Shown one piece after another: positions 8,160-14,439 of a stretch of DNA of 62,131 bases. The DNA comes from Cellulosilyticum sp. Its GTDB lineage: Bacteria > Bacillota > Clostridia > Lachnospirales > Cellulosilyticaceae. Under the pieces are notes generated by a model. It was not told the DNA's origin. It saw only the letters and a list, made by a program, of their open reading frames with translations, and did not search any database. The stretch spans positions 1 through 62,131 of the forward strand of contig JAFOHG010000009.1 of the NCBI GenBank assembly GCA_017421915.1. Direction: 5' to 3'. Every line of letters begins with the position of its first letter. Position 1 is the stretch's first letter. The position numbers and the translations under genes were made by a program.

Positions 8160-10301
8160 TTACTTTGTTAATTTCATTGTTAAGCCAATTTTGCTCCTTG
8201 CTACATCTACTGATATGACTTCTACATCTACAATATCCCCTACTTTAACTACTTCTAAAGGATGCTTAATAAACTTATGACTCATTTGAGAAATGTGTAC
8301 AAGTCCATCTTGATGTACACCTATATCTACAAATGCTCCAAAGTCAACAATGTTACGAACTGTTCCTTTTAATCTCATACCTTCCTTTAAATCTTTAAGG
8401 TCTAACACCTCACTGTGTAAAATAGGCTTTGGCATATCCTCACGTGGATCACGTCCTGGTTTTTCTAAGGCTTTTACAATATCTTCAAGCGTTGGTACAC
8501 CGACTTCTAATTTTTCTGCTAAGGACTCTATATTTCCAATGCGTGTGTGTAAATCCTTAAACTCACGATTTTCTAATTCTTCTTTTGTATAACCCACTTC
8601 TTTTAGAAGTGCATTAGCTACTTTATATGATTCTGGATGCACGCTTGTTGCATCTAAGAAATTCTCCCCATCTGTAATACGTAAAAAACCTGCACATTGT
8701 TCAAATACTTTTGGTCCAAGACCTTTTACTTTCTTAATCTCCGCACGTGATTTAAAAGCCCCTACTTCTTCACGATAAGCAATAATATTTTGAGAAACAC
8801 TCTTCTTAATCCCTGCCACATATTGTAGTAAAGAAGAAGATGCTGTATTAATATCTACACCTACTTCATTAACTGCACTTTCTACTACTCCACCTAAAGA
8901 TTCTTCTAGTCTCTTTTGATTCATATCATGTTGATATTGTCCAACTCCAATAGCTTTAGGCTCTATCTTTACAAGCTCAGCAAGTGGATCTTGCAAACGT
9001 CTTGCAATAGAAACTGCACTTCTTACACCAACATCATCATTTGGAAATTCTTCTGTCGCTAATTTAGAAGCAGAATAAACAGAAGCCCCTGCTTCATTAA
9101 CAATAACATAGTGTAATTGTTTATCTATTTCTTTAATCATATCTGCTGCAAACTTTTCAGTTTCTCTTGAAGCTGTCCCATTTCCAATAGAAAGTAAATC
9201 AACATCATACTTTTTAATTAAATCTTTCAGAACTTTGCCTGCTTCTTCTGTCTTATTTTGAGGTGGTGTAGGATAAACTACTGTATTATCTAATTTCTTC
9301 CCTGTTTCATCTATAACAGCTATTTTACAACCTGTACGATATGCAGGGTCAATCCCCATTACCGTATGTCCTTTAATAGGTGCTTGCATTAAAAGTTGAT
9401 ATAAATTCTTCTTAAAAACTTCAATGGCTCCATCTTCTGCTTTTTGTGAAAGTTCATTACGTAAATCTCTTTCAATAGCGGGTGCAATAAGCCTTTTATA
9501 GCTATCTTCTAACATAGGTACTAAGTAATCTCTCGTTGTACACTCTTTTCTTATCACTTTTCTTTCAAGATAAGCTATAATTTCTTCTACAGGTGCCTCT
9601 ATTTTTACACTTAAAGCTTTTTCATTTTCTCCACGATTAATGGCTAAAATACGATGTCCTGGAATGACACTTACTTTTTCACTATAATCATAGTACATAT
9701 CAAATACAGTTTCAGCTGTTTCATCCTTTGCTTTCGTTACAATAAGACCTTTATTATAGGTAAGTTTACGTATGTAGCCTCTATAATCCGCTTCATCCGA
9801 AATGGATTCTGCTAAAATATCTTGTGCGCCTAGTAAAGCTGTTTTTATGTCTGCTACACCTTTCTCATCACTAACAAATTCTGCTGCAAGTATTTCAACA
9901 TCTTTTTCTTGTCCTTCTATAAGAATTTTAGCTAATGGCTCTAATCCCTTTTCTTTTGCAATGGTAGCTCTCGTACGTTTTTTTGGACGATATGGTAAGT
10001 ATAAGTCCTCTACCTCTGTGGCTGTCATTGCCTGATCAATAGCTGTTTTTAATTCCTTGGTAAGTTTGCCCTGTTCTTCGATACTTTTTATAACCTGTTC
10101 TTTACGAGATTCTAAGTTTAATAAATAAGTATAACGCTCTCCAAATTGTCTTAAAACCTCATCATTTAACCCTCCTGTGAGTTCTTTACGATAACGTGCA
10201 ATGAATGGAATTGTATTACCTTCGTCTATTAACTTAATTGTATTTTCTACTTGAGATTTTTTTATTTTTAGTTCATCTTGTAATATTTGTATAATATCCA
10301 T
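8160..10301 (-). CDS. tex: Tex-family S1 RNA-binding transcription accessory protein
   Basis: This 713-residue protein has the full Tex layout. A helical N-terminal domain (IPFIARYRKELTGGLND near residue 30) is followed by a YqgF/RNase-H-like domain starting at GIDPAYRTGCK (~320). Helix-hairpin-helix motifs come next (KKVKGLGPKVFEQCAGFLRI, ~530), and a C-terminal S1 domain (GTVRNIVDFGAFVDIGVHQDGLVHIS, ~640-710). Tex binds nucleic acid and is linked to transcription and RNA turnover. Start is ATG after AAGGAG. It lies 70 bases downstream of the kinase pair with no terminator between, so read-through from that pair is possible. Confidence 0.95.
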   Translation of the reverse strand: MDIIQILQDELKIKKSQVENTIKLIDEGNTIPFIARYRKELTGGLNDEVLRQFGERYTYLLNLESRKEQVIKSIEEQGKLTKELKTAIDQAMTATEVEDLYLPYRPKKRTRATIAKEKGLEPLAKILIEGQEKDVEILAAEFVSDEKGVADIKTALLGAQDILAESISDEADYRGYIRKLTYNKGLIVTKAKDETAETVFDMYYDYSEKVSVIPGHRILAINRGENEKALSVKIEAPVEEIIAYLERKVIRKECTTRDYLVPMLEDSYKRLIAPAIERDLRNELSQKAEDGAIEVFKKNLYQLLMQAPIKGHTVMGIDPAYRTGCKIAVIDETGKKLDNTVVYPTPPQNKTEEAGKVLKDLIKKYDVDLLSIGNGTASRETEKFAADMIKEIDKQLHYVIVNEAGASVYSASKLATEEFPNDDVGVRSAVSIARRLQDPLAELVKIEPKAIGVGQYQHDMNQKRLEESLGGVVESAVNEVGVDINTASSSLLQYVAGIKKSVSQNIIAYREEVGAFKSRAEIKKVKGLGPKVFEQCAGFLRITDGENFLDATSVHPESYKVANALLKEVGYTKEELENREFKDLHTRIGNIESLAEKLEVGVPTLEDIVKALEKPGRDPREDMPKPILHSEVLDLKDLKEGMRLKGTVRNIVDFGAFVDIGVHQDGLVHISQMSHKFIKHPLEVVKVGDIVDVEVISVDVARSKIGLTMKLTK

Positions 10302-10371: not shown

Positions 10372-11847
10372 TTATCCCACTATATCTCTAACTTTTATCT
10401 GGTCCTTTAAAACATTAATGTATTCCTCATCTAACCATTTATCTGTGGTTAATAGACACTTTGGAAAAGTCATTTTTATATTATAATTTTCTTCATATTC
10501 GAATGCTATATTTTGCAACTCAAGTATACAAGTAACTAGTTGAAAATTTAATACTTCTGCTATCTTATTGGTTTCCTTAATATCTTCAACAGACGAATTG
10601 AGCTCTAGTAAATCTTGTATTTTATTGTGCCTTATAAGAATATAGACCTCTCCATTTTCTTCATACTTACCTAATTCTACATAAAGTTGGCTTTCCTTAT
10701 CCCATTTAATAAGCAACTGAAATAATAACATAAAGCATTGCTGCATTAAACTCACATCTAAATTTTGGTAAACTTCTTCTTCTAAAGGATTAAATACAAA
10801 TGAAGATTCTTGCATTTGTTCTGTAAAAGCATCAATAACGCTTTCAACTACCTCTACCAAGTTATAAGTATCATATTTAACTCTCATATAATTGCCTTGT
10901 ATTTTTTGTATATCAATCATATTCTGAATGATATTCATCATCTGATTACAATCTTTTTTGATTTCTTTAACTTCTCCCAATATAACTTTATCATCTTTAT
11001 AATCTAATGCTAAAATATCTAGTCCACTTCTTATAACATTAACCGGTGTTTTTAATTCATGAGATAAATTGACTATTACATTACAAGTTTCATTTTGTTT
11101 ATGAATCATCTTCTCTGCTTCACTTAACGCTTCTAACTTATGATTCCAAGGGTCTAGCAAACACTTTTGGTACGTATATACTATAATACAGCAGTTCTGT
11201 ATGATTTCAAACACTGCCGTACACAAGTAGTATTCATTGATTAAAATATCTAAACTTATTATTGCAAAGGATTGTAGAATCTCGAATATCAAATATAACC
11301 TACAATATGGTGTTCCCCTCCACCAATAGCATGCAATACTAGCTACGACTATACTTATCAAACTTATTTTTCCACATGCCTTACTAATATACTCCGCCGG
11401 AATAGCCATACATATAATACTTTGTATTGACATACTTAGAAGTATACTCCATTTACTCAACATATATTCTTTTTTACAAATTAATGAAACAAATATAACC
11501 ATAATCCCTATAAAATCTAACATAATATAGGTTAATATTAATCTTGCTATCCGTTCTCCTTCTAAATAATGGTAATGAAAATTAATTCTAAAATAAAAAT
11601 AAAAGATTAAAGCAAGTAATTTAATCATATTATTTATGGATAATACTCTAATAACCTTAGCTGGTATCACTTCAATATATTGATTAATCATAAGTTTAAC
11701 TGCTACACTTATTCCAAATGCAATAATAGCTACTCCACAACTTACAAAGATACTTACAACTCCTAATATTTCTAATATCCACGCTATAATCAACATGGCT
11801 ATCCCTATATAGCCAAAAATAACTACTTCTCTTCTTTCCCCCAACAT
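10372..11847 (-). CDS. Membrane histidine-kinase-like protein with His box but no ATP-binding motifs
   Basis: This 491-residue protein has seven or eight hydrophobic segments in residues 8-225, then a DHp domain with an intact phospho-acceptor box, NLSHELKTPVNVI (His263). The C-terminal part has the length and secondary-structure pattern of a HATPase domain, but the N box reads LLFQLLIKW, the G1 region reads IRHNKIQDLL (no DxGxG), and no F or G2 box is present. It should not bind ATP alone. Start is ATG 11847, with AAGGAGAG five bases upstream inside the previous gene, giving a 25-base overlap and probable translational coupling. I infer it is the phospho-acceptor half of a pair with its neighbour. 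No response regulator is adjacent. Confidence 0.8.
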   Translation of the reverse strand: MLGERREVVIFGYIGIAMLIIAWILEILGVVSIFVSCGVAIIAFGISVAVKLMINQYIEVIPAKVIRVLSINNMIKLLALIFYFYFRINFHYHYLEGERIARLILTYIMLDFIGIMVIFVSLICKKEYMLSKWSILLSMSIQSIICMAIPAEYISKACGKISLISIVVASIACYWWRGTPYCRLYLIFEILQSFAIISLDILINEYYLCTAVFEIIQNCCIIVYTYQKCLLDPWNHKLEALSEAEKMIHKQNETCNVIVNLSHELKTPVNVIRSGLDILALDYKDDKVILGEVKEIKKDCNQMMNIIQNMIDIQKIQGNYMRVKYDTYNLVEVVESVIDAFTEQMQESSFVFNPLEEEVYQNLDVSLMQQCFMLLFQLLIKWDKESQLYVELGKYEENGEVYILIRHNKIQDLLELNSSVEDIKETNKIAEVLNFQLVTCILELQNIAFEYEENYNIKMTFPKCLLTTDKWLDEEYINVLKDQIKVRDIVG

Positions 11848-13346
11848 ACTCTCTCCTTATATACCTCTTGTTCCTTAGGTAAAACGATACTAATTAGTGT
11901 TCCTCTTCCTTCTCTACTAATGACTTGAATTTTTCCATTATGCATATCTACTAGTGATTTAACAATAGATAAGCCCAATCCACTGCCCTCTTGTTTTTCT
12001 ACTGTTTTAGGCTCTACACGTTTAAATTTTTCAAAAATACTCTCTAAATAATAAGCCGGAATGCCTATACCAGAATCTTGAATGCATAAATAAATATTTC
12101 TTTTCTTCTCTGATAGTACAACTTTTATTTTTCCATTCTTCTTATTGTACTTAACTGAGTTAGAAATTAAATTTAAAATAATCCTTTCCACAGCATCCAA
12201 GTCAATATCGGCTATTATACCTTCATGTGCTGCCATATATTCTAATCGAATATTTTGTTGGCTTACATAGGTTTCTAATGACTCTACAATACCTCTTACA
12301 AATTCAGTTAAATTAACCCGCTGAAAGATTGGTAATCTACTACCTAGCTCATAAGATTTTAATTCTAAAATATCTTCAATTAACTTAAGCAATCTATTAC
12401 CATTATTTCTGATTTTATCAATATATTTCTTTCCTTGTTCTTTAGAATTAACCTTAATCTGTACTTCTAATATTTTTGTTTTTGCTATAATTTTTTCTAT
12501 TAAGTATTTAATCTCTTTAGTTGCTAAGACTAATATTTCTTGCTCTTTTTGTTTATTAACTGCTTCTTTCTCTTTACTTCTTACCCCATTTTCAACTTTT
12601 ACCCAAGTATCCCCTAATGTAAACTCATTAATATAATTCACTACTTGTATCATAAAAGCAATTTGTAGCACATACTGCATCATTTGAATCATAAATCCCC
12701 TATTCAAAATACCTATTATTCCTAAAATACCTATTAATATTTTAATACAAAAAAGATAAATCAAATGTTTCATATGTATAGGTTGAAACGCTTTAATATA
12801 TTTATAGTTTCTAATTATTGCTCCAATAATTACCATACAAATAAAGACTCTCATCCCTATCTTTACCCAGAATTGACTGAGAATAATCTTATTTATTGGT
12901 AACTGGACGAATATAAGTATACTTAGCAAAACAATAACATACAGTTGAATAACCCAAATTTTTTTGATATTAGTCTCTTCATCAATATATCTTATACTAA
13001 CAGCTAACATCATGACTTGAAGAAACTCCATAATAAATTTATATAATTCATAATTAGTATTTATAATAGCTACTGGTTGAAACAAATATTGTTTCATACC
13101 TACTATAATTACTATACAAAGTTCAAATGAAGTAATTGCTATGTAATTTGCTTTATTATTAAGTTTCGTATCTATATTATTGTAAATAAGTATAATCCCA
13201 CCAATACTTAAAACCATACGCAACATTTCACTTGTCAACCTTACAATAAATAATATATCCATTGCTGAGAGCTGTACCCCTATTATTAATATAAGATAAA
13301 TGATACCTATATAAATTATAGTGCAAAGCTCTAAAATTTTCCCCAT
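11823..13346 (-). CDS. Membrane histidine-kinase-like protein with intact ATPase but no phospho-acceptor His
   Basis: This 507-residue protein has about eight hydrophobic segments in residues 8-240, then a DHp-like coiled coil and a complete HATPase domain. The N box is LNLISNSVKYN, G1 is DSGIGIP, the F box is IFEKFKR and G2 is GSGLGLSIVKSL. In the DHp helix the H box position reads VLATKEIKYLIEK: Lys277 (codon AAA at 12518-12516) replaces His, and the following E(L/F)RTP signature is absent. The rest of the helix pair (NRLLKLIEDILELKS) is normal. It can probably bind ATP and dimerise but not accept phosphate. It is the upstream gene of a two-gene unit, with AGAGGAAG before the ATG. Confidence 0.82.
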   Translation of the reverse strand: MGKILELCTIIYIGIIYLILIIGVQLSAMDILFIVRLTSEMLRMVLSIGGIILIYNNIDTKLNNKANYIAITSFELCIVIIVGMKQYLFQPVAIINTNYELYKFIMEFLQVMMLAVSIRYIDEETNIKKIWVIQLYVIVLLSILIFVQLPINKIILSQFWVKIGMRVFICMVIIGAIIRNYKYIKAFQPIHMKHLIYLFCIKILIGILGIIGILNRGFMIQMMQYVLQIAFMIQVVNYINEFTLGDTWVKVENGVRSKEKEAVNKQKEQEILVLATKEIKYLIEKIIAKTKILEVQIKVNSKEQGKKYIDKIRNNGNRLLKLIEDILELKSYELGSRLPIFQRVNLTEFVRGIVESLETYVSQQNIRLEYMAAHEGIIADIDLDAVERIILNLISNSVKYNKKNGKIKVVLSEKKRNIYLCIQDSGIGIPAYYLESIFEKFKRVEPKTVEKQEGSGLGLSIVKSLVDMHNGKIQVISREGRGTLISIVLPKEQEVYKERVCWGKEEK

Positions 13347-13449: not shown

Positions 13450-13504
13450 AATATAAAAAAGTAGCTTTTTAGGGCTTTTTTTCCAAAAGCTACTTTTTTA
13501 TATT
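13450..13504 (-). terminator. Long terminator after thrB
   Basis: Arms 13450-13469 and 13485-13504 pair over 20 bases, with AGTAGCTTTT/AAAAGCTACT at the core. A/T-rich flanks give a U-tract on both strands. It ends the threonine operon and separates it from the kinase pair. Confidence 0.75.
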
Positions 13505-13530: not shown

Positions 13531-14439
13531 TTAATAGCGTAACTCCTCATTAATCCATACCTTAGCCCCTTCATTATCCGCTTGTAGCATTTGGACCTGC
13601 CATTTTTGATCTAGTGTATCCAAATAAGCAACCATTTCTCTTCTAAAATCTACAACATTTTTAATAACCGCTAATAAAGTTGGACCTGCACCACTTAGAA
13701 AGGTTCCTTTTGCACCATATTCTTTTGCTTTGTCTAAAATCTTATCCATGTTAGGAATAAGCTTTGAACGATAAGGTTGATGCAATCTATCTTGTGTTGC
13801 AATCTCTAAATTATCCATATCCCCATTCATCATTGAGGCTGCTAAAAGTGCTGCTCTAGAAGCATTAAACACTGCATCTTGCAAGCTTACTTCTTTAGGT
13901 AAAGCATTTCTAGCAAGCTCTGTAGATAATGTGAAATCTGGTATCATAACTGCAAAATGTAATGTATCGGGTACACGTACCTTCACATATTTCATATCAC
14001 TTTCATTCATTGCACCGATTGTCATACCTCCTAATAATGCTGGTGTTGTATTATCTGGATGCCCTTCAATTTGTGCTGCCATTTGAACAAGTTCTTCTTT
14101 TGAAAAAAAACTTTGACTCATAGCATTCGCTATATGAAGTCCTGCTACAATACAAGCTGCACTACTTCCTAATCCTCTTGTATGCGGAATAGCATCCTGC
14201 TGTATTAACCTAATGCCTGGCACTGGTTTGCCAATATTATCATAGAAATAGCAAATGGTTTTATAAATCAAATTATTTTCATCCGTTGGAATATGTGGAT
14301 TACCGTCTTGAATAATAATTTCTAATCCTTTTTCAATTTTTTCTGCATACACAATATTATACATAGTAAGAGCCATTCCTATACTATCAAATCCAGGTCC
14401 CATATTTGCTGTTGTTGCTGGTACTTTTACTTTAATCAT
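13531..14439 (-). CDS. thrB: Homoserine kinase ThrB
   Basis: A 302-residue GHMP-family kinase. The ATP-binding motif is IPHTRGLGSSAACIVAGL near residue 85, preceded by KVPATTANMGPGFDSIG at the N-terminus. The C-terminal GTFLSGAGPTLLAV block completes the fold. It phosphorylates homoserine on the way to threonine. Start is ATG after GAGGAGGAG. It is the last gene of the ACT regulator-hom-aspartate kinase-thrB run, with a terminator-like hairpin between it and the aspartate kinase. No thrC is present in the window. Confidence 0.96.
   Translation of the reverse strand: MIKVKVPATTANMGPGFDSIGMALTMYNIVYAEKIEKGLEIIIQDGNPHIPTDENNLIYKTICYFYDNIGKPVPGIRLIQQDAIPHTRGLGSSAACIVAGLHIANAMSQSFFSKEELVQMAAQIEGHPDNTTPALLGGMTIGAMNESDMKYVKVRVPDTLHFAVMIPDFTLSTELARNALPKEVSLQDAVFNASRAALLAASMMNGDMDNLEIATQDRLHQPYRSKLIPNMDKILDKAKEYGAKGTFLSGAGPTLLAVIKNVVDFRREMVAYLDTLDQKWQVQMLQADNEGAKVWINEELRY

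Follow-up and report, generated by a model that had tools for sequence, protein, structure and literature searches.

Reciprocal losses in a co-conserved pair of membrane sensor kinases suggest a split histidine kinase in Cellulosilyticum and its relatives

Can two full-length membrane sensors, each lacking what the other keeps, make up one histidine kinase between them? Almost every histidine kinase is described as a homodimer, and the split kinases known so far come mainly from chemotaxis. The question is raised by two neighboring genes on a 62,131-nucleotide stretch of DNA from a Cellulosilyticum sp., the whole of which we analyzed and refer to as the window. We named their products KinA and KinB for this analysis; they are distinct from the Bacillus proteins. 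KinA (11823..13346, minus strand) is a 507-aa open reading frame with an N-terminal membrane sensor (residues ∼1–255), DHp helices without the phosphoacceptor His (Lys277), and a complete HATPase_c domain (∼346–495). KinB (10372..11847, minus strand; 491 aa) has an N-terminal membrane sensor (∼1–238), a DHp domain with the H box NLSHELKTPVNVIRS (His263), and a degenerate ATP-binding domain (∼326–470). An initial annotation had read the two as a split, heteromeric kinase. It had also noted a 25-base overlap of the genes, the second ribosome-binding site being inside the first gene, and the open reading frames and an AAGGAGA motif agree: the overlap spans 11823..11847 (minus strand), and AAGGAGA lies within the end of KinA, just ahead of the KinB ATG.

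Translations of the surrounding genes placed tex on one side of the pair and thrB, lysC, hom, and an ACT-domain gene on the other. The conserved neighbors are thrB (homoserine kinase; 13531..14439, minus strand) upstream and a gene for a tex-like S1 RNA-binding protein (8160..10301, minus strand) downstream. Between thrB and KinA, we read from the sequence a hairpin followed by a T run (13450..13500, minus strand), a likely thrB terminator, which suggests a separate promoter for the two kinase genes. A consensus scan with a loop limit of 8, which this hairpin exceeds, did not report it, and matches in a promoter scan were no more numerous than in shuffled sequence. The window contig yielded no receiver domain or response regulator over its whole length, in line with the initial annotation, which had seen none next to the pair.

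In Pfam searches, the HATPase_c match of KinA scored 6e-28, and its HisKA match fell below the cut-off and covered the second half of the domain only; KinB matched HisKA at 2.8e-9 and gave no HATPase match. The aligned phosphoacceptor position is Lys277 in KinA (within LATKEIKYLI, residues 274–283; 12498..12527, minus strand) versus His263 in KinB (NLSHELKTP). The KinB H box and adjoining partner-specificity residues (261–279; 11011..11067, minus strand) read LSHELKTPVNVIRSGLDIL and contain the specificity set NVSGDI. KinA carries NLISNSVKY, DSGIGIP, FEKFKR, and GSGLGLS, and KinB carries none of the four. Motifs and alignment thus bear out the annotation's upstream protein with complete N, G1, F, and G2 boxes but Lys277 for His, and motifs and Pfam its downstream protein with a perfect H box (His263) and all four boxes lost. 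A simple hydropathy scan gave seven membrane segments for KinA and eight for KinB, close to the roughly eight per protein reported before. A substitute phosphoacceptor His in the KinA DHp domain was considered and rejected, none being seen by eye in the helix of the window protein. Pfam detected no HPt or CheW domain in either protein; both have HisKA and HATPase_c regions with membrane sensors instead. Neither shows the CheA architecture (P1/HPt phosphoacceptor, P3–P5), and neither holds a complete HisKA and HATPase in one chain.

AlphaFold2 monomer models of the cytoplasmic parts were confident (pLDDT 87 and 89); their inputs were the window proteins aligned with ordinary kinases from the genome scan rather than with orthologues. 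The KinA model best matched active HK853-type kinases in the PDB. In the KinB model, the ATP-domain fold is still recognizable in outline, and the degenerate kinase RetS gave the best matches.

The pair was present in eight genomes of two genera: that of the window (G000), G001, G002, G003, G005, G006, G014, and G021. A search of relatives recovered full-length KinA from G001, G002, G005, and G006 in the same genus and from G014 and G021 in another genus of the family, with scores far above those of all other kinases. KinB was found in every KinA-bearing genome and in G003; the eight orthologues scored 1e-167 or better, and the next proteins, ordinary kinases, scored 6e-34. Every locus with flanks had the order thrB, KinA, KinB, tex, with thrB on a separate contig in G006. 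Contig ends break the pair in G003, where KinA follows thrB and runs off one contig and KinB lies beside tex on another. The 25-base overlap is confined to the window genome, KinA–KinB spacing in the relatives being 7–37 bases, and an adjacent response regulator was absent from all seven loci. In G014, G001, and G003, hom and lysC are separated by a phosphoglycerate-mutase-like gene (L023:5038-6249, L024:4633-5853, and L027:3265-4488, respectively); it is absent from that position in the window, G002, and G005.

Across 24 genomes of the family, intact KinA and KinB were either both present or both absent. In G007, G012, and G023, thrB and tex sit side by side with no pair between them, and in G017 and G008, unrelated genes occupy the interval: a Cys-rich 107-aa open reading frame (L168:1537-1860) and an apparent lipoprotein with an ABC importer set (L169:1336-6186), respectively. 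The site seems open to insertions. G019 retains only a truncated KinA start, 68% identical to KinA of G014 and near apparently mobile genes, and so does not represent KinA without KinB. G004 was rejected as a loss of the pair because thrB and tex are likewise missing from its assembly, making it uninformative. Beyond the family, searches of 295 genomes of the order and, with the KinB profile, of 391 genomes of the class yielded ordinary orphan kinases only and no further pair. Scanning genome contigs with the KinA profile yielded no orthologue, ordinary kinases swamping the results.

Conservation within the pair is crossed. The seven full-length KinA proteins have K, R, Q, E, N, Y, and E at the His position, and the G003 fragment, its sequence seen only as far as that position, has Ser by eye. 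KinA orthologues retain NLISNxxKYN, D[ST]GxGI, F[EN][KR]F, and EGSGLGLxIVK. In KinB, LSHE[LF]KTPxNVIxS is invariant (8/8), and every orthologue combines an H box and a retained HExxT phosphatase motif (8/8) with loss of the N, G1, F, and G2 boxes (8/8). Identity to the window protein is 27–44% for KinA and 18–42% for KinB, and because overall identity is this low, the retained positions are informative. Mean pairwise identity is 29.5% in the DHp and 48.4% in the CA domain of KinA; for KinB, the values are 44.0% and 27.0%. The sensors average about 20% in both. Invariant columns number 0/22 in KinA versus 12/22 in KinB over the 22-residue H-box stretch (P 6e-5) and 36/112 versus 2/100 over the CA domain (P 1e-9), P values that treat columns of related sequences as independent and are descriptive only. 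Both proteins diverge very fast: G000 and G002 share ∼44% identity in them, against ∼91–92% in thrB and tex.

According to these motifs, phosphoacceptor and ATP-binding functions lie on separate proteins in all eight genomes (with KinA of G003 read to the H position only). The initial annotation had predicted a pair conserved as neighbors with the same complementary losses, without His at position 277 in first-protein orthologues or intact boxes in second-protein ones. The losses are identical in neighboring genes at seven loci and in the contig-broken G003; no His was found among the seven full-length KinA proteins and the G003 fragment, and no KinB retained an intact N, G1, F, or G2 box. The comparison showed that the pair is co-conserved and, as judged from sequence, that only KinA keeps an ATP-binding site and only KinB the phosphoacceptor His and HExxT. 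The split-kinase interpretation is, at this level, supported.

The same losses might mark two functionless, decaying kinase copies or a sequencing or assembly artifact. Motifs are missing from both proteins, divergence is fast (44% identity where thrB has 91% in G000 versus G002), some relatives have empty sites, and G019 holds a truncated KinA. However, the frames are open in all eight genomes, the remaining motifs are conserved one by one, and the same reciprocal state recurs in two genera, including G001, whose single 4.7-Mb contig leaves assembly error as no explanation. On this evidence from eight genomes, open frames, and crossed conservation, we rejected sequencing error and decay as the source of the missing motifs; the explanation is largely refuted and extremely improbable.

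The sensors bear on how the pair arose. Profiles of the KinA and KinB sensor halves align over their full length (hhalign score 76.6, E 1.3e-10), with 100 shuffled controls reaching at most 18.3 and reversed controls at most 22.8. Each sensor's HMM matched the other sensor in several genomes (3e-10 to 2e-5) and no other kinase in three genomes. The two sensors are related to one another, no further homologue came to light, and the pair looks like the product of a tandem duplication of one gene followed by reciprocal loss. The initial annotation had proposed two different sensing domains: two diverged sensors there are, but these appear to be diverged copies of one domain rather than unrelated ones.

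KinB resembles RetS of Pseudomonas aeruginosa, its top PDB match, in keeping the H box and HExxT while the G boxes are gone; in RetS, which pairs with another sensor kinase, the H box is intact and includes HExxT, and the HATPase domain is devoid of G boxes (PMC5992135). This raises the idea that KinA and KinB serve as hubs whose partners are other, complete orphan kinases rather than mainly each other. KinA would lend those kinases its ATPase, and KinB would take phosphate from them or block them in the manner of RetS with GacS, an established heteromeric kinase network (PMC5992135). The same genomes do encode several further orphan kinases whose specificity residues are similar. Yet the two adjacent genes are retained or lost jointly, and no other orphan kinase tested shares the sensor homology that links them. 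Co-retention, adjacency, and sensor homology favor mutual KinA–KinB pairing, and we consider the hub arrangement quite unlikely. RetS moreover damps a complete kinase, GacS, whereas the adjacent partner of KinB is KinA, which lacks the His; without its own His in KinA, neither protein should be able to act alone, unlike RetS/GacS.

Other kinase pairs share part of this pattern. In DivL of Caulobacter, as in KinA, the phosphoacceptor His is replaced (by Tyr) and the ATP-binding fold kept, but DivL regulates CckA, a complete kinase that is not reciprocally dead. Rv0600c and Rv0601c of Mycobacterium tuberculosis are incomplete halves of one kinase gene with an adjacent regulator, in contrast to the two full-length duplicates without one described here. 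These adjacent kinases cooperate with TcrA (PMC9274095). Hik36/Hik43 of Synechocystis has been called a split histidine kinase, its two proteins binding the same regulator (PMC7656254); unlike KinA/KinB, it is CheA/PilL-type and soluble, with genes far apart that are not mutual duplicates. CheA3/CheA4 of Rhodobacter sphaeroides places ATP-binding and phosphoacceptor functions on two proteins, neither active alone (PMC3591291), and so offers the likeness of two proteins together forming one kinase. It differs in belonging to the soluble CheA class of chemotaxis, with a P1/HPt phosphoacceptor and with the missing modules physically absent; KinA and KinB are full-length HisKA-type membrane sensors, each keeping an inactive copy of its missing module.

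In sequence type, KinA and KinB are closest to the clostridial orphan sporulation kinases (CAC0323, CAC0903, CPR1953/CPR1954, and others). These too are multi-pass membrane sensors without an adjacent regulator and, like KinB, have Spo0A-type specificity residues (PMC6136694, PMC11210211); unlike KinA/KinB, they carry a complete HisKA–HATPase in one chain. Such sporulation kinases have few features in common (PMC11210211). CA_C0323 residues were examined by Davidson et al. through alignment alone, and direct phosphorylation of Spo0A by CAC0323 is undemonstrated, since active protein could not be purified (PMC11210211).

The choice of partner by a histidine kinase is set by six residues after the His. 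We used positions H+7, 8, 11, 12, 14, and 15, which we take to be the right ones from matching the B. subtilis KinA and EnvZ sequences to the residue strings in PMC6136694. Those strings are NVSAQV for CA_C0323 and NISAQL for CA_C0903, with TAGFQL-type strings in Spo0F-feeding kinases (PMC6136694). Beside NVSGDI in the window, the other KinB proteins read NVSAEL, NVSAEI, NVSADI, NVSADI, NVSADL, NVSVQV, and NVSAEV. The consensus, NVS[AGV][DEQ][LIV], resembles NVSAQV/NISAQL and none of the 44 regulator-paired kinases compared; orthologues match at four to five of the six positions and the window KinB, by the same count, at three. Among Clostridiaceae kinases nearest the KinB profile, three have exactly NVSAQV. 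Asn occupies H+7 in all KinB, in 8/10 other orphan kinases, and in 0/44 regulator-paired ones (G000, G001, and G014; Fisher P 4e-8), a few of these class assignments being possibly wrong because the regulator finder was a home-made profile. Eight hybrid kinases were set apart from this count; several have H+7 Asn, followed mostly by Gly or Ser.

A search for Spo0A succeeded in seven of the eight genomes with the pair; the eighth, G021, is 75% complete. None of the six single-domain receivers that we read was Spo0F-like; all six were CheY-like. Two observations count against Spo0A: H+14 is Asp or Glu in seven of eight KinB proteins where verified kinases have Gln, and at six residues read, Spo0A of the genus has NDFIEF rather than the NEFIDY of C. 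acetobutylicum. The G006 Spo0A (L247, G006:C160) reads NEFIDY, in contrast to NDFIEF in the other six genomes; G006 is 6% contaminated, and so this copy may be foreign. The initial annotation had named no target. Its point that no regulator is adjacent stands, but the specificity residues point to Spo0A, and direct transfer from phosphorylated KinB to Spo0A is our best guess.

A genuine split kinase might instead feed some other response regulator. No locus has an adjacent regulator, H+14 is Asp/Glu, and partial degeneracy of the specificity residues (PMC6136694) leaves room for another regulator. But the H+7 Asn and the small H+11/H+12 residues match the Spo0A-type orphans and none of the 44 paired kinases, and we judge this alternative improbable. 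We return to a split kinase acting on Spo0A: KinA and KinB are probably obligate subunits of one split membrane histidine kinase, derived from a tandem duplicate and feeding Spo0A, the master regulator of sporulation.

Under this proposal, an orphan sensor kinase would have been duplicated in tandem and then undergone reciprocal loss. KinA and KinB would pair through their DHp helices, the diverged sensor halves would bring two inputs to the complex, and the ATP-loaded KinA domain would phosphorylate His263 of KinB. Phosphorylated KinB would pass the phosphoryl group straight to Spo0A; while KinA is inactive, KinB may dephosphorylate Spo0A-P through its retained HExxT, which would put the kinase and phosphatase arms on different subunits. 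More tentatively, this heterodimeric membrane-sensing HisKA kinase could control Spo0A as an AND gate for sporulation, perhaps as switch-like as has been modeled for split kinases. In this AND-gate reading, catalysis would lie on one subunit and phosphotransfer and phosphatase action on the other.

Retention of HExxT in all eight KinB proteins also fits a different division of labor, in which KinB serves chiefly as a phosphatase of Spo0A or as a phosphate sink and KinA as an ATP-binding regulator that does not phosphorylate it. RetS, the best structural match of KinB and likewise without G boxes, acts as a transmitter phosphatase; several clostridial orphan kinases work as phosphatases (PMC11210211); and C. 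difficile PtpA-C and CAC0437, which lower sporulation, offer a parallel. Of the motif residues, however, Glu and Thr matter more for phosphatase activity than His does, yet the His is invariant too, and KinA retains every ATP-binding motif of an active kinase. We regard this account as unlikely and keep to phosphorylation of KinB by KinA.

The general idea of a split kinase is not new, as 711 HisKA proteins (1.7%) without HATPase have been counted as possible split bifunctional kinases (PMC3591291). In open-access literature text, we found no description of a duplicate pair with reciprocal loss among HisKA kinases. Split kinases and degenerate partners such as RetS were already known; what appears to be new is mutual loss in a pair of full-length membrane sensors. 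With each full-length sensor lacking exactly what the other keeps, the pair amounts to a complementation experiment set up by nature, in which trans-phosphorylation can run in one direction only and sensing, catalysis, and phosphotransfer become separable gene by gene. Most clostridial families are uncharacterized for sporulation initiation (PMC11210211), and if Spo0A is the target, the pair would be a two-protein input to how clostridial spore formation begins. It would then also test the prediction that split bifunctional kinases make ultrasensitive switches (PMC3591291).

The C terminus of several of these kinases has a recurrent tail. xEFSDIY ends 7/10 orphan kinases and 0/44 regulator-paired ones (L188, L199, L204, L220, L226, L228, and L233, with the variant xELSDIY in L228) and is possibly a marker of clostridial orphan kinases; the string EFSDIY had no match in the paper text searched. 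The xEFSD tail of the orphans is common to four KinA orthologues, which end in related xEF[SA]DL tails (L023–L026, from G001, G005, G014, and G021). As a criterion, the xEFSD[IL] tail is not established; it is absent from KinA of the window, G002, and G006 and present in weak form in some KinB. One 424-aa kinase (L205:4751-6025, G014:C14) carries a receiver domain at its N terminus, reads NISSQL at the specificity positions, and ends in a SIEFSDIYM tail; its size and domain order are the same as those of the A. thermocellus sporulation kinase Clo1313_1942 (PMC11210211).
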